Positions 1,304-34,324 of a stretch of 64,000 nucleotides of DNA are shown one piece after another. Positions within the stretch are counted from its first letter, which is position 1. Each line of letters opens with the position of its first letter. Position numbers and translations under genes: made by a program. Source of the DNA: Thermocoleostomius sinensis A174 (lineage in GTDB: Bacteria; Cyanobacteriota; Cyanobacteriia; Elainellales; Elainellaceae); assembly GCF_026802175.1 (NCBI RefSeq), contig NZ_CP113797.1:4813026-4877025 (forward strand), read 5' to 3'. Under the pieces are notes generated by a model. It ran no database searches and was not told where the DNA came from. It saw nothing but the letters and a program-made list of their open reading frames with translations.

Positions 1304-2032
1304 TTGTCCATATCTCTCAACTCAATTCAGCGAAGTAAATCTCTATATGAGCAAACCTATGATGCCCTGCGCACTAGTATTCTCACTGGAGATTTAGAAC
1401 CAGGAGCACGACTAGTAGAAACTCAACTGGCCGAACAGCTTCAAGTCAGCCGCACCCCTATTCGTGAAGCCATTCGACAACTGCAACGGGATAATTTAGT
1501 GACAGCCGATGCAAACGGAAGCTTGCGAGTCACCACAATCTCGATCGCCGATGTGGCTCAGTTGTATGATTGTCGTATTGCCCTAGAACAGTTGTCAGTT
1601 GAAGCAGCTTGTCAAAATGCCACCGCCTTGCAACTGCGACGGCTTGAAGACTTGGTATCACAAGCTGAGCATCTCCAAACCCAACCTTGGGCCCAATCCG
1701 CTCGATCGCCCCGCTCCAGTTCCTATCTGTTGGATTTGGATTACCAGTTTCACCATACGATCGCGGAAAGTTCGCAAAATCGCTGGTTGGTGACGTTGCT
1801 GGAACAAGTGTTCGACCAAATGACCCTGCTGCGGGTGCAAACCACTCGCCACAACCCCAGGGTGTTGGAAATCCGGTTAGAACATCGCCAGATTTTTACT
1901 GCCATAGCCCAACGGGATGTAGTGGCATCCGTGGATGCAATTCGATCGCACCTGATCGCCAGCAAAGCCAGAGTGATTCAAGAAGTGAAGAATTTGCATG
2001 TGGCGATCGGCGATTCAGAGGCAGGAGACTAG
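1304..2032 (+). CDS. GntR family transcriptional regulator, FCD (FadR-like) subfamily
   Basis: A 242-residue protein with an N-terminal winged helix (about residues 10-75, with the typical SRTPIREAIRQLQRDNLV segment) and an all-helical C-terminal FCD ligand-binding domain (about 85-225). The FCD pattern D..FH..I...S.N is visible as LDYQFHHTIAESSQN. These regulators bind small carboxylic or amino acid effectors and usually repress a linked catabolic gene. The start is a TTG: a clear GGAGG at 1292-1296 sits 7-8 nt before it and no ATG is suitably placed. It is divergent from the M20 amidohydrolase and separated from it by a region containing a palindromic operator, so that gene is the likely target. 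The ligand is unknown. Confidence 0.85.
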   Translation: MSISLNSIQRSKSLYEQTYDALRTSILTGDLEPGARLVETQLAEQLQVSRTPIREAIRQLQRDNLVTADANGSLRVTTISIADVAQLYDCRIALEQLSVEAACQNATALQLRRLEDLVSQAEHLQTQPWAQSARSPRSSSYLLDLDYQFHHTIAESSQNRWLVTLLEQVFDQMTLLRVQTTRHNPRVLEIRLEHRQIFTAIAQRDVVASVDAIRSHLIASKARVIQEVKNLHVAIGDSEAGD

Positions 2033-2160
2033 GGCTTGGGGGCTGGGCTTTGCCGTGAGTGTCAGTCGGACGGAATTGGGGATGAAAATTGATTATTCTT
2101 TAGTTCTAAAATTAAATTTCTGAGATCAAGTTTGCCACTAGTCAGGAAGGAGCGACATTC

Positions 2161-2547
2161 ATGCATCGCGTGTTCATTTGTGGGTCAGCATTGCGCGGTC
2201 AGCCCGATCACCAAAATTTGCAATCTGCAATCTTTATTAAGGAAACGAAAACGCTACCGCTCTACCGGCTTCATGCGGCGGAAAATGGCTGGCATCCAGC
2301 AATCTACCAAGTCGAAACGGGTGGCATTTCAATTCCGGGTGAAATCTATGAGCTGACGCCAGAGCAGTTTGAATATTTGGCAACCAATGAACCGCCGCAT
2401 ATGTATCCGGCTGAGGTGAAGTTAGAGGGCAATGAGGTGGCGACGGCGTTTCTCTATCCACAGGAGCTAGTGGAGCAGTATAACTGGCTCGATATCTCTG
2501 ACTATGGCGGTTGGGCTGCCTACAAAAAAGCGACGGCCACCGCTTAG
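2161..2547 (+). CDS. Gamma-glutamylcyclotransferase-fold protein, allophanate-hydrolase-C-terminal-like
   Basis: A 128-residue cytosolic protein opening with MHRVFICGSALRGQPDH, the loop typical of the cyclotransferase (AIG2/GGCT) fold. It continues with GWHPAIYQV and GGISIPGEIYELTPEQFEYL, which match the stand-alone proteins related to the C-terminal domain of allophanate hydrolase. A good ribosome binding site, AGGAAGGAG, ends about 8 nt before the ATG. It lies between the regulator and ispE and may be read with them. In allophanate hydrolase this domain assists breakdown of N-carboxyurea. Whether this small form is an enzyme or a stabilising factor is not known. The ureide-like neighbour at the left edge makes a nitrogen-scavenging link plausible. 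Confidence 0.65.
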   Translation: MHRVFICGSALRGQPDHQNLQSAIFIKETKTLPLYRLHAAENGWHPAIYQVETGGISIPGEIYELTPEQFEYLATNEPPHMYPAEVKLEGNEVATAFLYPQELVEQYNWLDISDYGGWAAYKKATATA

Positions 2548-2586
2548 ACTGGTTGCAGCCGTTTTTATCGCCACCCTGACGCCTGT

Positions 2587-3534
2587 ATGCAATCCTATTC
2601 GCTCCTTGCGCCTGCCAAAATTAATCTCTATCTGGAAATTATTGGCGATCGTCCCGACGGTTATCATGAATTGGCAATGATTCTGCAAAGCATTGCCTTA
2701 GCCGACCGAATTGATTTGCGCGCCAACGGCACCGATCAAATCCGAGTTCACTGCGATGATCCGCAAGTGCCAGCCGATGACAGCAACCTGGCCTATCGAG
2801 CAGCGGCGCTGATGGCAACTCAGTTTCCAGACGCTTACAACCGCTACGGCGGCGTGGATATCACTCTGCACAAGCACATTCCGATGGGAGCAGGGCTGGC
2901 TGGCGGCTCTACGGATGCGGCAGCAGTACTGGTAGGGGTGGACTTGCTCTGGAAACTGGGGCTGACGCAAACAGAAATTCAAGAGTTAGCGGCGCAACTG
3001 GGATCGGATATTCCCTTTTGTGTCACAGGCGGCACTGCCATTGCCACCGGACGCGGAGAGAAACTAGCTCCTTTGCCCAGCCTCGATCGCCTTCATGCCG
3101 TGCTGGCAAAGTATCACAGCATTGGGGTGTCCACTGCTTGGGCGTACAAAACCTATCGCCAACAGTTTCATGATTCCTATGTCACTGATCCGTCCACCTT
3201 ACTGGATCGATCGCGGCGAGTTCATGCGCGGGCGATTGTAGAAGCCATTATGCAGCACGATAATCATTGCATCGGGCAGTTGTTGCATAACGATCTAGAG
3301 CGTGTGGTATTTCCCGCTTATCCTTCCGTCGCTCATCTGAAACAAACCCTGATGCAGTTTTACCCACTGGGCGTGATGATGTCTGGCTCTGGCTCAACGG
3401 TGTTTGCACTGGTAGAAACCGCTGAACAGGCCTATCACCTGCAACAGCAATTGCGGCAGGCCATTTCTGACCCAGATTTGGGTATTTGGACTACACAACT
3501 AATTGCACATGGCGTTCAGTTGATGCATTCTTGA
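2587..3534 (+). CDS. ispE: 4-diphosphocytidyl-2-C-methyl-D-erythritol kinase
   Basis: A 315-residue GHMP-superfamily kinase of the methylerythritol phosphate pathway. It phosphorylates the 2-hydroxyl of CDP-methylerythritol with ATP, on the way to the isoprenoids needed for carotenoids, phytol and quinones. The N-terminus APAKINLYLEIIGDRPDGYHEL is split here as the substrate-binding strand (APAKINLYL) and the DGYHEL loop. The ATP-binding GHMP motif PMGAGLAGGSTDAAA is near residue 100, and the C-terminal MMSGSGSTVFAL motif completes the active site. Length matches the family (about 280-320). It starts 39 bp after the cyclotransferase-fold gene on the same strand, so co-transcription is possible but carries no obvious functional meaning. 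Confidence 0.95.
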   Translation: MQSYSLLAPAKINLYLEIIGDRPDGYHELAMILQSIALADRIDLRANGTDQIRVHCDDPQVPADDSNLAYRAAALMATQFPDAYNRYGGVDITLHKHIPMGAGLAGGSTDAAAVLVGVDLLWKLGLTQTEIQELAAQLGSDIPFCVTGGTAIATGRGEKLAPLPSLDRLHAVLAKYHSIGVSTAWAYKTYRQQFHDSYVTDPSTLLDRSRRVHARAIVEAIMQHDNHCIGQLLHNDLERVVFPAYPSVAHLKQTLMQFYPLGVMMSGSGSTVFALVETAEQAYHLQQQLRQAISDPDLGIWTTQLIAHGVQLMHS

Positions 3535-3545
3535 TGCTGATACCT

Positions 3546-5009
3546 TCACAGCGATCGCAAAAACCGGATCAGAGCAGCGCGATCGGCAGCGGACATAGTT
3601 CTAAATGCTTCTTTGGAGGCTTCTGCTTCACCGCTGTGCCAAAGAATGGCTTCCTCAAGGGTGCGGGCGCGACCATCGTGTAGGTAACTAGAGTAAGGCA
3701 ATACAGTTTGCGTTAAACCAATTCCCCACAACGGAGAAGTTCGCCATTCTGTGCCAGTTGCTTGAAAATCCGATCGATGATCAGCTAATCCATCTCCTAA
3801 ATCGTGTAGCAGCAAATCGGTGTACGGGTGAATTACTTGATTCGTCAGCACTGGAATGGGGTGATTGCCTGTTCGTAATTCCGATACATGGCACGCGGCG
3901 CAGTTAGCAACAGTAAATAACATTTCGCCCCGCTGCACCTCGGGATCGTCGAGCAAGGTGCGGCCCGGAACCGCAAGTGTTTGTACATAGAATGTGGCCT
4001 GGTCGAGGGTAGTGCGATCGATGTCGCTGGAACCGTCTGGGTTGGGAAACAACGGATTGGTAATTCCCATATCGTTGACATAGGCGGCTGCCGATTGTTG
4101 CAGCAGGTTGGGTTGATTTGCCTTTAAGCCAAACCGTCCCAAGGCAGTGGTCTGCTGAACCACATCCCAAACTTGATTGGGGCGACCTGAAATCCCATCC
4201 TGATTTCTGTCTTCTGGGTCTGCCAACGCCAAAATGTCCGTGTCAGGAACGGCTTCTAACAGCCCAAGTCCAAAAACAGGCGGCGGCAACCGCAACGACA
4301 CCTGCACTGACGGTGGCAATGGACTGCCGTCTCGCAAGGTAATGCGAGGTTGCGGTGATCGGAGCCGATAAGGAGTACCATCGCCATACTGTCCTGTCTG
4401 TTCCTGCCACTGAAGGTCTACCGTTGCCTCTGGAGCCTGCCCATAGACTCCGTGATCTTGAATTTGCGTGCCCAAGCCAGGAACCGGCGGGGTACTTTCT
4501 AGATCGACCGTTGCTTCGGGATGATAGTTGGCGATCGGCATTCCAGGTGCATCGGAACTGGATGCTTCAATGGCTGGCAAACTAACACGGGCAAGCAATT
4601 GCCCTGGTTGCGGTAGGCCGCGCCCATTGCGCAAGTGGCATCCTGCGCAAGAAGCATTGTTAAACAACGGCCCTAACCCTGAATTAAGTGGGGCTGGGGC
4701 GGTGACAAACACTGCCTCGAATGCCAGATCACCTTTGAGATGGCGATTCACTTCAGCGGCGCTTAATCCGGCTGAGGGCTGCTCGTAAGCGCTAGAACTG
4801 CGATTTGAAACGGTGGTGGTTCCTCCAGCCATAGGGATTGAAGTTTGGGCTTGGACAACAAACCCGCGATCGAACCCAGGGGAGAAGCCAGCGGAGAACA
4901 GTCCATTGGATAAGAAAATACCAGCGATCAGCGCGATCCCAAACAGCAGTATCAAACGAATCTGCCTAGCCCCAGCCGATCGCCGTCCCATACCTTTGAT
5001 GATGGTCAT
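3546..5009 (-). CDS. Di-heme oxidoreductase (DHOR / DUF1111-type c-type cytochrome)
   Basis: A roughly 487-residue exported protein with an N-terminal membrane or signal segment and two c-type heme attachment motifs, CAGCH in the first third and CAACH in the last third. This is the layout of the DHOR family of putative di-heme thiol oxidoreductases. It follows the imelysin gene by only a few bases and is probably translated from the same message. Imelysin plus DHOR is a recurrent bacterial iron-uptake pairing, so a periplasmic redox role in iron handling is the best guess. The start is uncertain. A TTG at 5025-5027 lies only 2 nt after an AGGAG that overlaps the imelysin stop, whereas the ATG at 5007-5009 has no good ribosome binding site. 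The ATG is used here because it begins just ahead of the signal segment. Confidence 0.85.
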   Translation of the reverse strand: MTIIKGMGRRSAGARQIRLILLFGIALIAGIFLSNGLFSAGFSPGFDRGFVVQAQTSIPMAGGTTTVSNRSSSAYEQPSAGLSAAEVNRHLKGDLAFEAVFVTAPAPLNSGLGPLFNNASCAGCHLRNGRGLPQPGQLLARVSLPAIEASSSDAPGMPIANYHPEATVDLESTPPVPGLGTQIQDHGVYGQAPEATVDLQWQEQTGQYGDGTPYRLRSPQPRITLRDGSPLPPSVQVSLRLPPPVFGLGLLEAVPDTDILALADPEDRNQDGISGRPNQVWDVVQQTTALGRFGLKANQPNLLQQSAAAYVNDMGITNPLFPNPDGSSDIDRTTLDQATFYVQTLAVPGRTLLDDPEVQRGEMLFTVANCAACHVSELRTGNHPIPVLTNQVIHPYTDLLLHDLGDGLADHRSDFQATGTEWRTSPLWGIGLTQTVLPYSSYLHDGRARTLEEAILWHSGEAEASKEAFRTMSAADRAALIRFLRSL

Positions 5010-5032
5010 CTTGCATGCACACCCCAACGCTC

Positions 5033-6274
5033 CTATCCTGCCTGCACCTGGGGGAGTACCTCAGATTGCAGCGTGTTAAAAACTTGCAAAATGGCGGCTT
5101 GAGCCGCTTCCATCTGAGCAATGGTGTCAGCCTCTTCAAGGTTTGTCTCGACCGGCCCTGGAATCGCCGCTACCGCATCGATCGCCGCTTCTAACTCGCG
5201 TTTAATTTGGTCATCTAAAGCAGGATTTTGTTCTGCCACCCATGCACTCAAACTATAGCCCGTATCCGAAGCAGAAATGCTGCCAAGATAAGCATTTCTT
5301 ACACTCAGAAGGTTGTTATGCAAATCATTTAAGGTGGTTTGACTGAAGCGGCTTTCTAAAGTGACTGTATCCTTTGTTTCCAGTGGTTCACCGATCTTCT
5401 CGTTGGCAACTTCGTCTAAGCAACCCAACATTCCCTGCACAATTTCTTCCACTGCTGCATTGGCTGTTAAATAAGCAGGGTTACTGCTGTCGCCGGCTGT
5501 CGCTAGGACCTGACGATACGGCGGATTGCCATCTATTCCCGTTACCCAACTTTGTAAGAGTGCTTTGGCGGTCTGATCAAAGGCGATCGTCGCTGCTTGC
5601 AGATATGCTAGTTCCCGTTCCGAGAAATCATCGACTGTTTTGTCGTTTTCGACTCCAAATAGAATGAATTCAATGGCGTGAAAGCCCTGTTGTGTGGTTT
5701 GCAACGTAGCGATGTATTCAGGTGTTAACTCTTCTTCACTATTGATTACTGCCAGAACATCTGCTTCGTTCACCGGCCAATCATCTAGAGCACCATCGTA
5801 TCCCAGAGAGTCTGCTGGGCCAAAGGCAAAAGCCTCGCTCTGTTCCCACGGAAAACGAGCAGTGATCCAAGACTCGCGGGCAGCTTGCAGGGTTTGATCG
5901 GTGGGATTGCTGATAAAGGCATTGACAGTTGCCACTAGTTCCTCTGATCGAACCACTAGCTCTTCGTAGGTGGCAACAACGACTCGATCGGCAAAATCAC
6001 CGACCAATTGACGACTAGTCGCCTGATCGATACTACGGCTGACAGCTTCAGTCCTGGGATCTTCCGCAGTGATGAACGGTTCCGGTGGGATGGCTGGTGC
6101 GCCCAGGGTCAAAGATTGACGGCTCAAACCACCAAGCAGAGTCAGTAGGCTGGCGGCCAACACCACCTTGGTACACGGCCCAACATATGGCATCGATCGA
6201 GGCAGGAACATCAATGAGAATGGACTTAGATGCATCTTTGAAATATCCACTTTAAAATCTTTCTTAAGAATCAT
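5033..6274 (-). CDS. Imelysin family protein (iron-regulated, peptidase M75 fold)
   Basis: A 413-residue secreted protein of the imelysin (ICMP) family, helical bundles thought to bind iron or a ferric complex in the periplasm. The conserved GxHxxE signature appears as GFHAIE near the middle, followed by FILFG. The N-terminus has a hydrophobic stretch (VVLAASLLTLLGG) consistent with a Sec signal peptide. Several in-frame ATGs lie upstream of that stretch, so the start could be any of the first three; no lipobox is visible. A Fur-box-like site lies about 140 bp upstream and a di-heme oxidoreductase gene follows directly, which supports iron-starvation induction. No classical protease activity should be assumed. 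Confidence 0.88.
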   Translation of the reverse strand: MILKKDFKVDISKMHLSPFSLMFLPRSMPYVGPCTKVVLAASLLTLLGGLSRQSLTLGAPAIPPEPFITAEDPRTEAVSRSIDQATSRQLVGDFADRVVVATYEELVVRSEELVATVNAFISNPTDQTLQAARESWITARFPWEQSEAFAFGPADSLGYDGALDDWPVNEADVLAVINSEEELTPEYIATLQTTQQGFHAIEFILFGVENDKTVDDFSERELAYLQAATIAFDQTAKALLQSWVTGIDGNPPYRQVLATAGDSSNPAYLTANAAVEEIVQGMLGCLDEVANEKIGEPLETKDTVTLESRFSQTTLNDLHNNLLSVRNAYLGSISASDTGYSLSAWVAEQNPALDDQIKRELEAAIDAVAAIPGPVETNLEEADTIAQMEAAQAAILQVFNTLQSEVLPQVQAG

Positions 6275-6889: not shown

Positions 6890-7468
6890 ATGGCTGCAAT
6901 TATTTTGGATCTCAAACCCTTTGTTGACCTAAGCGATGACCAATTTTATCAACTGTGCCAAAACCACCGTGACCTAAAATTTGAACGGACTTCCCAGGGA
7001 GAATTAGTTATCGTGACGCCAGTTGGAGGAGAAGGAGGCAGCCGTGAGGCAGACTTAATTGGAGATTTGGTGTATTGGAATCGCCGCACCCAACTCGGTA
7101 AGGTATTCAGTTCTTCTACTTGCTTCAAACTTCCAAATGGAGCTAATCGATCACCTGATGTAGCCTGGGTGATGCAGGAGCGGTGGAATCAACTCACACC
7201 AGAGCAACAAAAAAAGTTCCCCCCCCTTTGTCCCGATTTTGTGATTGAGTTGCGCTCTGAGAGTGATGCGCTGGAGCTACTGCAACAAAAGATGCAGGAG
7301 TACATCAATAATGGATTACGCTTAGGATGGCTAATCAATCCTCAAGACCGGCAAGTAGAAATTTATAAAACGAATCAAATGAGACAGGTTCTTGACAATC
7401 CTCAGCAACTAAATGGAAATGATGTGCTGCCGGGATTTATGTTCGATTTATCTCTGATTTGGGATTGA
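6890..7468 (+). CDS. Uma2 family endonuclease-like protein (DUF820)
   Basis: A 192-residue protein of the Uma2/DUF820 family, PD-(D/E)XK-fold proteins that are strongly expanded in cyanobacteria and mostly of unknown function. Family landmarks are ELVIVTPVGGEGGSRE near residue 45, RSPDVAWV near 95, the acidic strand CPDFVIELRSESD near 120, and GLRLGWLINPQDR near 150. The D and E residues in these two strands are the predicted catalytic metal ligands. Length is normal. A run of seven A and a run of eight C lie close together around 7209-7227 inside the gene and could be slippage-prone. It sits among remnants in an AT-rich accessory stretch. Confidence 0.85.
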   Translation: MAAIILDLKPFVDLSDDQFYQLCQNHRDLKFERTSQGELVIVTPVGGEGGSREADLIGDLVYWNRRTQLGKVFSSSTCFKLPNGANRSPDVAWVMQERWNQLTPEQQKKFPPLCPDFVIELRSESDALELLQQKMQEYINNGLRLGWLINPQDRQVEIYKTNQMRQVLDNPQQLNGNDVLPGFMFDLSLIWD

Positions 7469-7494
7469 AATGTAGAAAGATAAAGAGAATGCCC

Positions 7495-7644
7495 TCACTC
7501 GGCTTCACCTAACCAGAAGTTATCAGGTAAAGGCTTGTTGAAGTCTTCTTTTAGCCGATTGAGTAAATTCAATACTTGTAATAGCAATGGCTCTGGTACT
7601 GAGGCTAGCTCACGCACGATCGTCGCTAGAATAGTCGTGGTATG
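7495..7644 (-). pseudogene. Fragment of a small DUF2281-like / antitoxin-like protein
   Basis: In frame to the TGA complementary to 7495-7497 the translation contains TTILATIVRELASVPEPLLL, then VLNLLNRLKEDFN and ends in NFWLGEAE. This resembles the short cyanobacterial proteins (DUF2281 type) often found next to PIN or Uma2-like genes. No ATG, GTG or well-placed TTG precedes it: the codon where an ATG would be expected reads CAT, and a stop lies about 55 bases further upstream. It is probably a decayed antitoxin-like gene, though a non-standard start cannot be excluded. Confidence 0.4.
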
Positions 7645-7650
7645 TAACCT

Positions 7651-8194
7651 ATCAGCCCTATTCTTCCAACTTTGGCACAGTTGCCAAGTTCACTAGGCCA
7701 ATGAGCCAACTTCACCTACAGATCCACAAGCTTATTAAATAGACTGTTAATTACTTTTATTAATACGTATTTACCTAAACACTCCCCTAAAGCTAGACGA
7801 TCGAGTTTGATGGCTGAAGGAGCGATCGATGTTCAGAGATGAGAGGGCATTTTTAGATAAAAGTTAAAGCATTACTTTAACTGAATGTAAATTATCTAAA
7901 TTACATTGACTTTTAGCCGGAGCTTGTGTGTAAGAAGTGTATATCCAATGTGGGAATCTAAGCGTGCTAGAAGGAGTAAAATTTTCTTTTGAAAGAGACA
8001 ATTTAGATTATGATAGGTGATCTCATGCACACACCTGAAACTCAGCGAAGCTACGGAAACTTCTCAAGCAAGAGTTGTCGAAATATTTATTAATACTTCA
8101 TAACACAAAATGACTTAGCCTCTACAGTAGGAGCCGTTTATTTCATCTTTTCTCAGCTTTCAATCCATCTTGAAGCAACTTTTGATAGGGCCTC
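7651..8194. other. AT-rich gene-free stretch upstream of the CHAT cassette
   Basis: About 540 bases with no supportable coding region on either strand. The composition is AT-rich and poor in HIP1 sites compared with the flanking housekeeping genes. No tRNA, terminal repeat or transposase remnant was recognised. The promoter of the CHAT gene must lie near its 3' end, but no unambiguous -35/-10 pair was found. Confidence 0.6.
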
Positions 8195-9319
8195 ATGAAA
8201 GATATTATTACTCCAAAATCAATTTTGTTACTTGCTGCAAATCCTAGAGAAACTAGAAGTTTGCGATTGCAAGAGGAGGAGCGAGAGATTAGAGAACGGT
8301 TACGCCTCGCAGGATATGGAAAAACACCCATCAATTCTACTGGAGCGACTCGATCGCGAGATATTCAGCAAGCGATGCTGGATTTCAAACCACAGATTGT
8401 GCATTTCAGTGGACATGGTGCTGCACAAGAAGGATTGGTCTTTGAGGATGCCGCAGGACAAGGAAAGTTGGTTAACTCGTCAGCATTAGCAAATTTGTTT
8501 AGATTGTTTAATCGCGTCGAATGTGTTGTCTTAAATGCCTGCTATTCAAAGTTTCAAGCTGAGGCAATTGCTCGACATATTGAATATGTTATTGGCATGA
8601 GTCAAAGAATTGGTGATAAAGCTGCTATTGAGTTTTCAGTAGGCTTCTATTCTGCTTTAGGAAGTGGCGAGTCAATTGAATTTGCATATGAACTTGGTTG
8701 TAATGCCATTCAATTAGAAGGATTACCAGAAGAATTAACCCCTGTTCTTTATAAAAAAGGAAAGCTACTTCAAATATACATTGGCAATAGAGTTTTAAGA
8801 ACCGATGAAGCGAATGATGAAGCAAGTCGTGAACTACATCAAGATCGAGTAGAAAAAAATTTAGGTGTTAACACTGTTCCTTCTGAACACGTTTCAGAGC
8901 ACTCAACTCAAACAATCTTGGAAGTACAGAAATCACCTAACAAGGATGCAATCATTCTCAATATACTCAGTAAGCTATTTGATGCGTTGTCTAGTCCTAA
9001 CCGTGAGATAGGTATTCGAAAGTTTGAAGAAATCGCTCATCAATCTCTATTTCAGAATGGTCAGATTGATCCAGCTTTCCGTAAAAATTGCTTCGATGTA
9101 GCAGCTACAAGATTAAATTTGTATAAGCAACCTGCTGAAGTGACTAGAAGTGAAATTACGAGCAGAACAAGGCTTGGTTTAAGAGGTGATAAAGAAGAGG
9201 GTAGGGAAGAAAAGTATGTAATTGCTCGTAAGGAGCAATTAGGAGGATTTAAGGGGCATGTTCGTATCTTTTTTCCTGCTAATGGTAGTTCAGCCAAAGT
9301 GTCGGGCTTAAATCTTTAA
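8195..9319 (+). CDS. CHAT-domain cysteine protease-like protein
   Basis: A 374-residue protein with an N-terminal CHAT (caspase-like) domain spanning about residues 8-190. The catalytic dyad is visible: His74 in HFSGHG and Cys116 in VVLNACYS, spaced as in CHAT and caspase-like peptidases. The second half (about 200-374) is polar, probably helical, and not recognised; it may be the recognition or substrate-binding part. No membrane segment or repeats are seen. It opens a compact run with a zinc-ribbon membrane protein and a defective M48-like protein. CHAT proteases act in bacterial immunity and regulated cell death when paired with sensors or effector substrates, so a defence or stress role is inferred, not shown. 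The gene is AT-rich relative to its neighbours, suggesting transfer. Confidence 0.8.
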   Translation: MKDIITPKSILLLAANPRETRSLRLQEEEREIRERLRLAGYGKTPINSTGATRSRDIQQAMLDFKPQIVHFSGHGAAQEGLVFEDAAGQGKLVNSSALANLFRLFNRVECVVLNACYSKFQAEAIARHIEYVIGMSQRIGDKAAIEFSVGFYSALGSGESIEFAYELGCNAIQLEGLPEELTPVLYKKGKLLQIYIGNRVLRTDEANDEASRELHQDRVEKNLGVNTVPSEHVSEHSTQTILEVQKSPNKDAIILNILSKLFDALSSPNREIGIRKFEEIAHQSLFQNGQIDPAFRKNCFDVAATRLNLYKQPAEVTRSEITSRTRLGLRGDKEEGREEKYVIARKEQLGGFKGHVRIFFPANGSSAKVSGLNL

Positions 9320-9349: not shown

Positions 9350-9700
9350 GTGAAGTGTTCAAACTGTCAGACTGAAAATCAAAAAGGTTCAAAGTTCTGC
9401 ATCAACTGCGGTGAATCCTTAAAAATCGCTGCACCTATTGATGATGGAATTCGTCAATCTCCATCGTCAAATAAAAGATACGCTCAAGGTAAAAACCCAA
9501 CCCTTGCTGCAATTTTATCCTTCCTAATTATAGGGCTTGGTCAAGTCTACAATGGCGATTTTTTGAAAGGAATAGTTATGTTTATAATTGCAGTCGTTTT
9601 ATTTGTTCCCACCGCAGGATTAAGTTCTTTTCCCATGCTCTTTTGGTCAGTTATTGATGCCTATCAAGTTGCTAAAGGTAATCAAAGATTATGGAAATAA
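9350..9700 (+). CDS. Zinc-ribbon protein with TM2-like membrane hairpin
   Basis: A 116-residue protein starting at GTG (9350-9352) with AAGGAG at 9335-9340. Residues 3-22 form a zinc ribbon, CSNCQTENQKGSKFCINCG, with four cysteines in two CxxC pairs. A linker leads to two hydrophobic segments (about 48-70 and 74-98), with NPTLAAILSFLIIGLGQVYNG and a closing SVIDAYQVAKGN; this resembles TM2-like small membrane proteins. The zinc ribbon would face the cytoplasm. It lies 30 bp after the CHAT gene and overlaps or abuts the start of the next gene, so the three are one transcription unit. It may tether the cassette to the membrane; its function is unknown. Confidence 0.75.
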   Translation: MKCSNCQTENQKGSKFCINCGESLKIAAPIDDGIRQSPSSNKRYAQGKNPTLAAILSFLIIGLGQVYNGDFLKGIVMFIIAVVLFVPTAGLSSFPMLFWSVIDAYQVAKGNQRLWK

Positions 9701-10659
9701 TGAAAATAGAAGGACTTAACCCTCTAGAATATGAGCATCCTTTAGATCAGAAAGGTCTCAATATGTTGGAGAAAACACCAGGCTTAGACTTTTGGGTCAA
9801 TAAGTTCTATGAGCTTGGTGCTGAACGGTTCTTACAACTCCATTTTGTTGGTAGTAACCTTAAAGTAACTTCTAGCAGCCTTCCTGATATCTACGAAATC
9901 TTAGAAAACGTTTGTGAAACTTTGAACTTGAAGACTACACCTGAACTTTACGTTCGACATGATAATTACACGTCTGAGGTACAACCTGTAGCTAATAATC
10001 TTCAAGGGATTACTATAGGAGTCGATCGTCCTCTAATTGCAATTAGTGCTGAATGTATCGAAAGTTTTTCAAGTTCAGAATTAGCATTTATACTTGGCTG
10101 TGAAATAGGTCGCATCAAGAGCAGGCATGTACTCTACAGCAACATTGCTGGTTTGCTTCCATCTGTTAGTGGAGTAATGGCAGGTTTGACGCTTGGAGTC
10201 AATTTAACAAGGCCCGTAATAGATGGATTAAATGTCGCACTAACACAATGGTATAGATGGTCAGAATTTACTGCCGATCGGGCAGGGTTATTAGCCTGCC
10301 AAGATTTAACTACTGCAATGAGATCAATGGCAAAAATTGCAGGACTACCTAGGAAGTATTTTGATTCTTTTGATATTGATGATTTTGTTACTCAGGCAAG
10401 AGAATATGAAGGGTTTGGGGATACTTCTTACGCCAAGCTGCTAAAAATATTTAGTTTAATGTCTAGGAATCAAGCCTTTATTGTTTCACGGGCAAACGAA
10501 CTTCTAAAATGGATAGACTCTGGAGGATATCAAGCAGTATTAGAGCGTAAAACCAAAATCAAACCACCTCCACCCGCTAATTTTTGCCGCCATTGTGGAT
10601 TCAAGCTTGAGCTTTCCAATGCCTTCTGCTCAAACTGTGGACAGCAAACTTCCGCTTGA
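9691..10659 (+). CDS. M48-like protein with destroyed HExxH motif and C-terminal zinc ribbon (pseudo-protease)
   Basis: A 322-residue protein whose fold signatures match cyanobacterial M48 metallopeptidases: SSSELAFILG before the active helix and the downstream SEFTADRAGLLA with the third ligand Glu192. However, the catalytic helix reads CEIGR (Cys137-Glu138-Ile-Gly-Arg141) where active members have HE[IL]GH. Both zinc-binding histidines are gone, so it is probably proteolytically inactive. The C-terminus adds a zinc ribbon, CRHCGFKLELSNAFCSNCG, like the one in the preceding gene. A hydrophobic stretch near residues 155-180 may insert in the membrane. The start may be ATG 9691 or ATG 9700, the latter overlapping the upstream stop as TAATG. 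It is probably a sensor, scaffold or CHAT substrate rather than an enzyme. Confidence 0.75.
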   Translation: MEIMKIEGLNPLEYEHPLDQKGLNMLEKTPGLDFWVNKFYELGAERFLQLHFVGSNLKVTSSSLPDIYEILENVCETLNLKTTPELYVRHDNYTSEVQPVANNLQGITIGVDRPLIAISAECIESFSSSELAFILGCEIGRIKSRHVLYSNIAGLLPSVSGVMAGLTLGVNLTRPVIDGLNVALTQWYRWSEFTADRAGLLACQDLTTAMRSMAKIAGLPRKYFDSFDIDDFVTQAREYEGFGDTSYAKLLKIFSLMSRNQAFIVSRANELLKWIDSGGYQAVLERKTKIKPPPPANFCRHCGFKLELSNAFCSNCGQQTSA

Positions 10660-11260: not shown

Positions 11261-11372
11261 GTTACTCTTCCTCTAACAGATGAATAACCATAGTCACCCA
11301 CCCTAGCAGAAGCCGATCGCCGAATCAAGTCATATTTGTTACCGTCTGTTAAAGATTGACGAAGCGTAAAAA

Positions 11373-11774
11373 GGGAAGAGGCGGACATAAGCCGGGTTCT
11401 GTTCCCTAGACGATCGCTCATCCAGAGGGCGGTTATCTATCTGGGATGCCTGTCACCAGACACCTCATGCGGAATACGCAGAAGTGAAACTCACTCCTAC
11501 CCGGAGCCGGAAAAAGACCAACCTTTGCTCCTTCGACCTTGCTTCCAACCGGGGTTTACCGAGCCAACACCTCTCGATGTTGCTGGTGCGCTCTTACCGC
11601 ACCTTTGCACCCTTACCTGTGAAAGGCTCAAGCTGTCCTTTCCATTGGCGGTATGTTTCTGTGGCACTCTCCTCACGCTCGCGCGCACTGGGCGTTACCC
11701 AGCAGGTTCGGTCTTTCGGAAGCCCGGACTTTCCTCAGGCAAAATGCCCGCAACCGCCTGCGCCTCCTCTTCCC
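11373..11774 (-). ncRNA. rnpB: RNase P RNA (M1 RNA)
   Basis: About 402 nt on the minus strand, the catalytic RNA that matures tRNA 5' ends. The universal CR-I element GAGGAAAGTCCGGGCTTC is near the 5' end and the 3' part contains GAACCCGGCTTATGTCC, both hallmarks of bacterial type A RNase P RNA. The terminal P1 helix is visible as GGGAAGAGG (5' side) and CCTCTTCCC (3' side), and these define the ends. A TTTTT directly after the 3' strand of P1 makes it a likely intrinsic terminator. Length agrees with cyanobacterial rnpB. Apparent reading frames across this block are not genes. Confidence 0.95.
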
Positions 11775-11827
11775 TTATTCCCAGTCTACAAGGCGAGGAG
11801 GGGGAAAGGATGAGAGCATTGCTGAAT

Positions 11828-11880
11828 TCAAGTAGGAGTTGCCCTCATCGCCAGGATGAGAAAGGGGAAATGGGTGAATG
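11828..11880. repeat. Dispersed GC-rich intergenic repeat, short copy
   Basis: The stretch shares CAAGT.GGAGTTGCCCT and the following ATC.CC with a copy at about 35690-35715. It belongs to the same loosely conserved family as the copies at 13505-13625, 19379-19480 and 35697-35795. The family combines 'TTGCCCTcAtcccc' with a CTCTCCC/GGGAGAG stem. This copy is degenerate. Confidence 0.45.
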
Positions 11881-12003
11881 AAACGAGGCTAATACTATAT
11901 TCTCTATCTCCCCTTGCTAAGGGAAGAAGCCACAGGCGGTGGGATGAATACGATACAGCCTGACAAAGCATGGATATCATCCTACCTCCTAACCTCCGAT
12001 CGC

Positions 12004-33472: not shown

Positions 33473-34324
33473 TTAGGGCAAGCGGGGCTGAACTTCTTGT
33501 GCAAACTCCAACTCACCTTCGCGCAATTCTGGCGGAACGCCATTGGGATAAGTTTCTGCAATTAATGCCTCGAGCCGTTCAACTCGGTTGCGAGGATTGG
33601 GATGAGTACTCAAAAACTCAGGTGGTCGCCCGCCTTGTTGAGCCGAGTTGAGGATTTGCATCAGTTCTACGATGCCTATGGGCGTGTACTCAGCTTCGGT
33701 CATAAACTGAAACCCCAACCGATCGCTTTCCAGTTCGTCGGCGCGTCCATAGCGCAAATTGACCAACTGGTTGACAGCTTGTGCAAGGATAGAGGCTTGC
33801 TGGCTACTATTCGGATCATCGCTGGCGGCAATAACAATCGCATTTACCAACGCCCGCCCAAGCTGCTGTCGGGCCAAATGCTCGGAGCCGTGCCGCGCCA
33901 CCACATGCCCCACCTCATGCCCTAACACTCCCGCTAATTGAGCTTCGGTTGTTAAACGACTAAGCAGCGCGACTGTGATAAAAATCTGGCCACCGGGTAG
34001 AGCAAAGGCATTGATTGTTTGTGGATCGTTTAGTACATGAAACTCAAACGGATAGGGTGATTCGCTCGCGATCGAGTCTTGCACCACTATCTGTCCCACC
34101 CGATCGATGTAGTCTTGCACTGTTTCGTCTGGATAAAGCCCGCCAAACTGCGCTGCCATTTCAGCACGAGCTTGTTGTCCCAGCACAATTTCTTGCTCTG
34201 GCGTCAGTTGCACCCGTTGCCGCTCGCCTGTTACTGGGTTTTCAGAGACATTAGTGGCGTAGTTAAACAAGCCGATGACGACAAAAATCAGCGCCAGAAC
34301 GAAACGGATCAGCAATCTAGCCAT
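33473..34324 (-). CDS. M48 family metalloprotease (exported, active-site intact)
   Basis: A 283-residue peptidase with an N-terminal membrane anchor or uncleaved signal (about residues 5-25). The zinc motif HEVGH is near residue 140 (VLGHEVGHVVARHG), and the third ligand lies in ELESDRLGFQFM about 50 residues later. It has no PDZ or TPR domain, so it is the small BepA/LoiP-like form lacking the TPR part. Such enzymes degrade misfolded envelope proteins. It provides a useful contrast to the M48-like protein at 9691, where both histidines are lost. It precedes the DUF456 gene by 49 bp on the same strand. Confidence 0.9.
   Translation of the reverse strand: MARLLIRFVLALIFVVIGLFNYATNVSENPVTGERQRVQLTPEQEIVLGQQARAEMAAQFGGLYPDETVQDYIDRVGQIVVQDSIASESPYPFEFHVLNDPQTINAFALPGGQIFITVALLSRLTTEAQLAGVLGHEVGHVVARHGSEHLARQQLGRALVNAIVIAASDDPNSSQQASILAQAVNQLVNLRYGRADELESDRLGFQFMTEAEYTPIGIVELMQILNSAQQGGRPPEFLSTHPNPRNRVERLEALIAETYPNGVPPELREGELEFAQEVQPRLP

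Follow-up and report, generated by a model that had tools for sequence, protein, structure and literature searches.

An M48 pseudoprotease that lacks both zinc-binding histidines, conserved in a modular CHAT and TIR effector operon

The operon and its M48-like protein

The window analysed here is the whole stretch of 64,000 nucleotides from the cyanobacterium Thermocoleostomius sinensis A174, and it carries on its forward strand an operon of three genes encoding an effector, a small membrane protein and a protein of the peptidase M48 family (loci and genomes beyond the window are designated L and G). The effector gene (8195–9319) specifies 374 amino acids, with an N-terminal CHAT protease domain (approximately residues 7–170) and a C-terminal module. 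The CHAT domain is recognised by Pfam (43.9 bits) and by the PADLOC chat model (64.6 bits), and the protein matches the PDB CHAT chain 8tl0 (E 9e-12), its SGHG and LNAC segments being aligned to IGHG and LNAC. The CHAT heads of the operon contain GHG and NAC segments, and we take the His of the former and the Cys of the latter to be the catalytic residues. The window protein differs from SAVED–CHAT effectors, since the PADLOC SAVED_CHAT profile covers residues 51–160 only (profile positions 334–445 of 498) and Pfam reports CHAT alone, with no SAVED domain. For the operon as a whole PADLOC returns only CHAT-type models, Pfam finds no EAD in the three proteins, and MoxR ATPase and vWA are absent from them.

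The C-terminal module (8939–9316, forward strand) comprises 126 residues (alignment A3; AF2 model with pLDDT 93.4) and is common to effectors with CHAT, TIR and EAD11 heads. In VIA-align the predicted structure matches many NTF2-like chains (best Z 8.5, rmsd 3.5 Å, 96 residues), scores that are middling and that carry the tool's warning of a mere common arrangement, and Foldseek gives E values no better than 0.045; the module fold is perhaps NTF2-like. Pfam gives no match on the module copy of locus L062. The small membrane protein (9350–9700, forward strand; 116 amino acids) has an N-terminal zinc ribbon (Zn_Ribbon_1, 31 bits) and a TM2-like hydrophobic part, where 19-residue hydropathy reaches 2.38. 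The TM2 model stays under its cut-off of 27.9 both in the window protein (15.2 bits) and in the L062 copy (24.2 bits).

The third gene (9691–10659, forward strand) encodes 322 amino acids and shares 10 nt with the TM2-like gene, as it does in all seven cyanobacterial loci that hold a TM2-like gene; the eighth, L065, has none between effector and M48. The product matches Pfam Peptidase_M48 at 38 bits (E 1.9e-9, cut-off 20.3), compared with 125.7 bits for an intact M48 protein encoded elsewhere in the window (33473–34324, reverse strand). The initial annotation had proposed that both zinc-binding histidines are lost, and the alignment bears this out: the segment ILGCEIGRIKSRH stands in register with VLGHEVGHVVARH of the intact protein, so that the HExxH motif of active zinc peptidases, HEVGH in the latter, is replaced by C137-E138-I139-G140-R141 (10099–10113), with codon 137 TGT for Cys (10099–10101), 138 GAA for Glu and 141 CGC for Arg (10111–10113). 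The third zinc ligand position, the Glu of ExxxD, is present as Glu192 in SEFTADRAG (10264–10266). That the scaffold survives the loss of catalysis, as had also been proposed, agrees with the predicted structure, for which the PDB list is headed by metallopeptidases of the M48 and M56 families (Z 9.6–8.4 over the first eight rows; BepA 6ait at the top with Z 9.6, rmsd 4.6 Å and 166 residues). The protein at 33473–34324, put forward as a comparison, is indeed intact, but it is a remote, BepA/LoiP-like relative outside the operon; a nearer intact paralogue (HELGH and AEFTCD, 29% identity) lies elsewhere in the same genome. The window protein ends in a zinc ribbon, C299-x2-C302 and C313-x2-C316 (10585–10638), whose four Cys are invariant in all 13 rows of the M48 alignment A4. 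Zinc-ribbon models fall under their cut-off here (22.4 against 25 bits) and are passed by the copies at L061 and L063.

A Uma2-family gene (6890–7468, forward strand, 149 bits) lies about 730 nt upstream of the CHAT gene, and downstream of the operon is a class A RNase P RNA gene (11371–11769, reverse strand; RF00010, 240 bits), in whose region the open reading frames called at 11484–11881 are probably spurious.

Conservation and decay of the zinc site

Close copies of the M48 protein were sought in 386 genomes of the phylum, 36 of the order and 217 of the family of G340, as well as in genome contigs. Seven further copies were found, with 52–68% identity (L061, L062, L063, L064, L065, L081 and L083; L082, L084 and L091 were counted as the same genomes as L063, L065 and L064). 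Their occurrence is patchy, with two of the 386 phylum genomes, two of the 36 order genomes and four of the 217 family genomes positive when the window's own genome is counted where searched. A scan of the genome contigs with the window protein alone gave no match; with alignment A1 as query it brought up 180 relatives, and the analysis used the best 80 of these.

Cys137 and Arg141 are present in all eight close copies, window included, and these come from eight genomes, which excludes chance or a sequencing error. Position 138 is Glu in seven of the eight and Gln in L063, and all four zinc-ribbon Cys are present throughout. Glu192, which the initial annotation had described as kept, is kept in the window but is not strictly conserved, for Glu is found in three copies (window, L061 and L081) and Asp in the other five. 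The same annotation had proposed aligning homologues that neighbour CHAT genes, with a finding of HExxH among them counting against a conserved change; at the five loci whose operon effector has a CHAT head (window, L061, L063, L064 and L083) every M48 protein has Cys137 and Arg141, and HExxH occurs in none. Selection was gauged on pairs with at least 60% identity, of which there were 22; dN/dS lies between 0.02 and 0.24 in the ten with computable dS, rough values given that dS is near or past saturation (lowest 0.99, four above 2), and 12 pairs gave no usable dS. The M48 protein is, on this evidence, conserved without its zinc site, and its zinc protease activity is almost certainly dead and selected to be so. 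That the change is instead a lineage accident, a sequencing error or the mark of a decaying pseudogene could draw on the fact that decayed M48 sites are common in the wider family, also where there is no effector. The same two residues in eight of eight copies, the open frames, the low dN/dS and the complete zinc ribbon rule this out for all practical purposes.

Cys137, together with Glu138 and Glu192, could also be thought to form another metal or thiol site, re-tooled rather than dead, since Cys137 is found in eight of the eight cyanobacterial copies and Glu138 in seven. We consider this very improbable. Beyond the Gln at 138 in one cyanobacterial copy and the Asp at 192 in five, the Bacteroidota members of the clade described next have Arg at 137, and position 138 is Leu in L087 and Met in L090; as residues vary at 137, 138 and 192, the clade as a whole shares no set of ligands.

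A maximum-likelihood tree was built from a selection of 65 rows among the relatives, without the four motif columns (row L029, which was misaligned, was left out, and for L189 and L191, which have stops inside the match, only the open parts were used). The eight cyanobacterial rows form one clade (100/98), and together with 12 Bacteroidota rows they form a clade of 20 (99/97), in none of which is the first His retained. All 13 M48 proteins linked to the module fall inside this clade; the 19 rows labelled intact fall outside it, together with the second decayed clade described below and two long-branched degenerate rows from Bacteroidota, L100 and L188. Other long rows are L193, L031, L002 and L030, with L193 and L002 joined by long branches, and the three intact outgroup rows do not form one side of a branch. 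The tree requires at least seven changes at each of the three ligand positions. L088 has a degenerate M48 (REIGH) with no effector beside it, and a search of its metagenome-assembled genome (MAG) for the module gave nothing; at L089 and L090 the contigs break off. Four Bacteroidota proteins, L189–L192, have Arg for the first His, have His, Lys, Gln and Lys respectively at the second, lack the zinc ribbon and have no module within 1.5 kb. L088 and L189–L192 show decay without an effector, whether through its loss or through other use. The second His would, from the tree, have been lost in the cyanobacterial branch (to Arg) and again in L190–L192 (to Lys, Gln and Lys).

Intact relatives with a similar gene arrangement lie outside the clade. 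In L092–L096 a TM2-like gene stands just before an intact M48 gene and the module is absent, and four of the five have no effector-like neighbour by eye among the genes listed. The exception, L094, is a betaproteobacterial MAG in which a TIR gene (1758–3071; TIR_2, 84.6 bits) without the module directly follows the intact zinc-ribbon M48 gene on the same strand; the arrangement may represent an earlier state of the system, in which the protease was still active. In L098 (Heliobacterium) an intact M48 gene is flanked on both sides by TIR-type genes on the opposite strand (3640–5889 and 7769–8893), with TIR_2 at 45.1 bits alongside PDZ in one and at 23.0 bits, below cut-off, in the other. These two loci rule out the idea that decay goes with any effector neighbour. 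Since intact M48 proteins adjoin TIR genes, an effector neighbour alone is not tied to decay; loss of the first His appears to go with the module clade, not with effector company as such, and TIR effectors may already have accompanied the membrane pair before the protease lost its activity.

Decay of M48 zinc sites occurred independently in a second cyanobacterial clade (21 tree rows, 100/100), which has a WNFLTSW-type tail and no zinc ribbon and to which most M48 genes of L004–L028 and L105–L160 belong. In a rough count of 80 distinct sequences sorted by tail words, identical last 270 residues being counted once, both His and the third Glu are kept in four; the second His is Arg in 58, and both His are lost in 28. 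Glu138 is kept in all 80, and the third ligand Glu has become Lys or Arg in most members. Among 13 loci taken to belong to this clade (L067–L078 and L080) there is no neighbour family common to most, and some families recur in several.

The module and its exchangeable heads

The heads attached to the module differ between loci. Among the cyanobacterial loci the five CHAT heads (recognised by Pfam in the window and L063, and by alignment or reading in L061, L064 and L083) stand beside two TIR heads, in L062 and L065 (TIR_2, 58 and 59.9 bits); the contig of L081 begins inside the effector gene and holds the last 34 module residues only. In three loci from Saprospiraceae MAGs, L085, L086 and L087, the module bears a TIR head and a zinc-ribbon M48 gene comes after it; TIR_2 scores are 36.7 bits in L085, 46.6 in L087 and 27.4 in L086, just under the cut-off of 28. 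In L180 and L181, from genomes of the order to which G597, the source of L085, belongs, the head is EAD11 (51.5 and 55.2 bits), and the effector gene is followed by a membrane gene of the DUF2085 family, with the M48 gene lying about 0.8 kb further along. No TM2-like gene lies between effector and M48 in L085 and L086, and L180 and L181 show only a weak TM2-type match. CHAT as an essential partner was dropped in view of the TIR heads at L062 and L065 and the EAD11 heads at L180 and L181 on one shared module. Judged by these gene neighbourhoods, the partner of the M48 protein is the C-terminal module, which carries CHAT, TIR or EAD11 heads, and not CHAT as such.

In the five Bacteroidota module loci (L085, L086, L087, L180 and L181) the first His of the M48 protein is Arg and the second is kept. 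Thus none of the 13 M48 genes found behind a module gene on the same strand, eight cyanobacterial (Cys) and five Bacteroidota (Arg), retains the first His; these are not thirteen independent cases, as the module clade may have a single origin. When 20 genomes were searched for the module, it was present in five of ten with a degenerate M48 and in none of ten whose listed M48 is intact.

The module is found in four of the 386 cyanobacterial-phylum genomes, in two of which (G004 and G016) it does not adjoin an M48 gene; the start of the G004 gene resembles a signal peptide by eye. It is found in six of 248 genomes in the order of G597, among which G642 has no M48 downstream of a module gene that lies at the contig start, and the contig of G665 stops just past the module gene. 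It was not found in 216 genomes in the phylum of G608 or in 213 in the phylum of G605, in scans run without a positive control, nor did tblastn pick it up in 72,556 plasmid records. The M48 protein matched nine plasmid records (29–34% identity) and one phage record (27%), and a scan of viral contigs with alignment A4 gave no M48 relative. L170 (7294–7809) and L183 (5527–6015) carry a stand-alone module preceded, as judged by eye, by a start resembling a signal peptide, and the contig of L183 ends directly after the gene.

Directly upstream of the effector gene, a Pepco-domain gene is present in three of the five CHAT loci (L063, L064 and L083); Pepco, a Pfam domain that we take from its name to be linked to peptidase systems, is absent upstream in the window and gave no match in the window's whole genome. 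Nine flanking proteins scanned in five loci include few defence-like genes; MoxR and vWA are not named among them, and one is an AAA protein.

Other genes with related domains were seen near these loci. About 3 kb upstream of the operon in L063 lies a gene (2500–4587) for an EAD1–CHAT–NB-ARC protein with weak APAF-1-like winged-helix matches. In L086, downstream and on the opposite strand, a stand-alone TIR gene (6977–8569; TIR_2, 56 bits) lies beside a patatin-like phospholipase gene (Patatin, 109 bits); by eye, a similar TIR/patatin pair is present in L087 and L090, and a TIR-like gene in L085, L088 and L089.

Possible roles of the operon

The loss of the ligands and its conservation, the order and overlap of the genes, the exchange of heads on a constant module and the signs of purifying selection can all be read from the sequences themselves. 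Going a step further, we favour, with moderate confidence, the view that the conserved M48 pseudoprotease, as the third gene of a modular effector operon, forms part of a sensor or scaffold that controls the effector; the operon probably serves in immunity or cell suicide. This view of the two proteins as a controlling platform follows from the constancy of the platform while heads are exchanged, the gene overlap, a fold kept with its ligands lost, the zinc ribbons on both platform proteins, the links to EAD11 and Pepco and the TIR gene that adjoins the intact pair at L094, together with a published remark on inactive peptidases in conflict systems (PMC7159879). Weighing against it are the loci that lack a TM2-like gene (L065, L085 and L086), the degenerate M48 genes with no module nearby, the scarcity of defence-like genes among the flanking proteins scanned and the lack of a Pepco match in the genome of the window.

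The operon encodes, in order, an effector (CHAT here, TIR elsewhere) with its putative adaptor module, the TM2-like/zinc-ribbon membrane protein and the zinc-ribbon pseudo-M48. The latter two would assemble at the membrane as a sensor or scaffold, possibly held together by their zinc ribbons. The old substrate cleft of the pseudo-M48 could then bind a peptide or protein signal, for example from phage or envelope damage, without cutting it, and an Arg at one old His position (Arg141 in cyanobacteria, Arg137 in Bacteroidota) may replace the positive charge of the metal. Binding would be relayed to the adaptor module, the CHAT or TIR head would be freed or clustered, and the released head would cleave cell proteins or NAD, so that the cell is stopped or killed. 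The immune step from sensor to effector is plausible, although we hold it more loosely than the controlling role. A shade more tentative is the proposal that the operon represents an undescribed class of cell-suicide or immune device, in which the membrane zinc-ribbon protein and the dead M48, as peptide or protein sensor, form a constant core, and the adaptor module, perhaps NTF2-like, is a socket for CHAT, TIR and EAD11 heads. On this proposal the arrival of the module would have turned a live M48 that had this membrane partner, in one case already next to a TIR gene, into a receptor, and Arg would have come to stand in for the charge of the zinc.

The pseudo-M48 and the TM2-like protein might instead be a pair of inhibitors that restrain the CHAT or TIR enzyme in the manner of an antitoxin or immunity protein, with no signal being sensed. 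The gene overlap, and a constant partner beneath a changing head, would agree equally well with a common inhibitor that docks on the module; dominant-negative roles have been proposed for inactive peptidases (a passage in PMC7159879), and an inhibitory role fits nearly as well as an effector-controlling platform. We nevertheless judge it unlikely, because a TM2-like protein is paired with an intact M48 and no module in L092–L096, four of the five without an effector-like neighbour by eye among the genes listed, which favours an older membrane device; a TIR gene adjoins the one remaining module-less pair, L094.

Those four pairs without an effector-like neighbour could equally be invoked for ordinary envelope or stress regulation, outside immunity altogether. 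M48 proteins often act in membrane quality control, and such a role would agree with the PADLOC result, confined to CHAT-type models, and with the lack of relatives in the scanned viral contigs. It would leave to be explained why CHAT, TIR and EAD11 heads share a single module, why a TIR gene also adjoins the intact pair of L094 and why close copies are so patchy (2 of 386, 2 of 36 and 4 of 217 genomes, as above), and we rate it a little lower again than inhibition, the TIR gene at L094 having slightly reduced its odds.

Returning to the pseudo-M48 as part of an effector-controlling platform, pseudopeptidases and exchangeable CHAT and TIR effectors are each known, and their combination is new as far as we have searched. 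The window protein resembles the family Peptidase M48 (PF01435; BepA, HtpX, Ste24/ZMPSTE24) in scoring above cut-off and in its predicted fold, and differs in lacking both zinc His, in its C-terminal zinc ribbon and in its place in an effector operon. EAD conflict systems (PMC7159879, PMC8195603) likewise have exchangeable heads, with EAD11 in two loci here, and offer a precedent for inactive peptidases; the core here, by contrast with the systems as treated in those papers' main texts, consists of M48, TM2-like/zinc-ribbon protein and C-terminal module. Neither main text mentions M48 or names Pepco; CHAT does not occur in the first, nor EAD11 in the second. A passage in PMC7159879 places inactive peptidase domains in the effector position of conflict systems and proposes that they are peptide binders or dominant negatives, and one in PMC8195603 describes inactive zincin-like domains in iSTAND2 systems. 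These too are inactive metallopeptidases in a predicted conflict system, but as described there they are effector domains, whereas the M48 here is a stand-alone conserved gene with a zinc ribbon. CHAT and TIR, as in the present operon, are named in PMC10907252 as effector domains of putative defence systems that are targets of diversity-generating retroelements; the architecture is another, and M48 does not occur in that paper. FtsHi, inactive ADAMs and alpha-MPP, as presented in a section of the pseudo-metallopeptidase review PMC11266112, are metallopeptidase scaffolds whose substituted zinc motifs, like that of the window M48, go with use in binding or assembly; M48, HtpX and Ste24 have no occurrence in its main text. 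Among CC-licensed papers in PMC, none was found on M48 with the CHAT domain, on the effector-associated domain with CHAT, TIR and M48, or for phrases on inactive M48, and no operon of this kind is named among the further matches listed. A modular effector operon with a dead M48 is apparently undescribed.

A further related arrangement is that of L092–L096, which share the TM2-like and zinc-ribbon M48 gene pair (M48 identity 39–44%) and differ in having an intact zinc site (HE[VI]GH), no module and, in L094 alone, a TIR neighbour. Intact, half-decayed and fully decayed proteins form an alignable series in which a protease turns into a pseudoprotease next to a new partner in the operon. Should the operon prove to be an immune device, a dead-M48 type of receptor and an adaptor module would be added to what is known of CHAT and TIR effectors, and whether the dead protease binds what the live one cut would become a testable question. 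Beside another intact M48 of the same family, in L099, lies a divergent vWA gene (2610–5681, 29.8 bits) with PP2C-like and kinase-like genes by eye, and genes with the look, by eye, of dynamin-like GTPases lie near intact M48 genes in L097 (2187–5906) and L103 (8043–10124).
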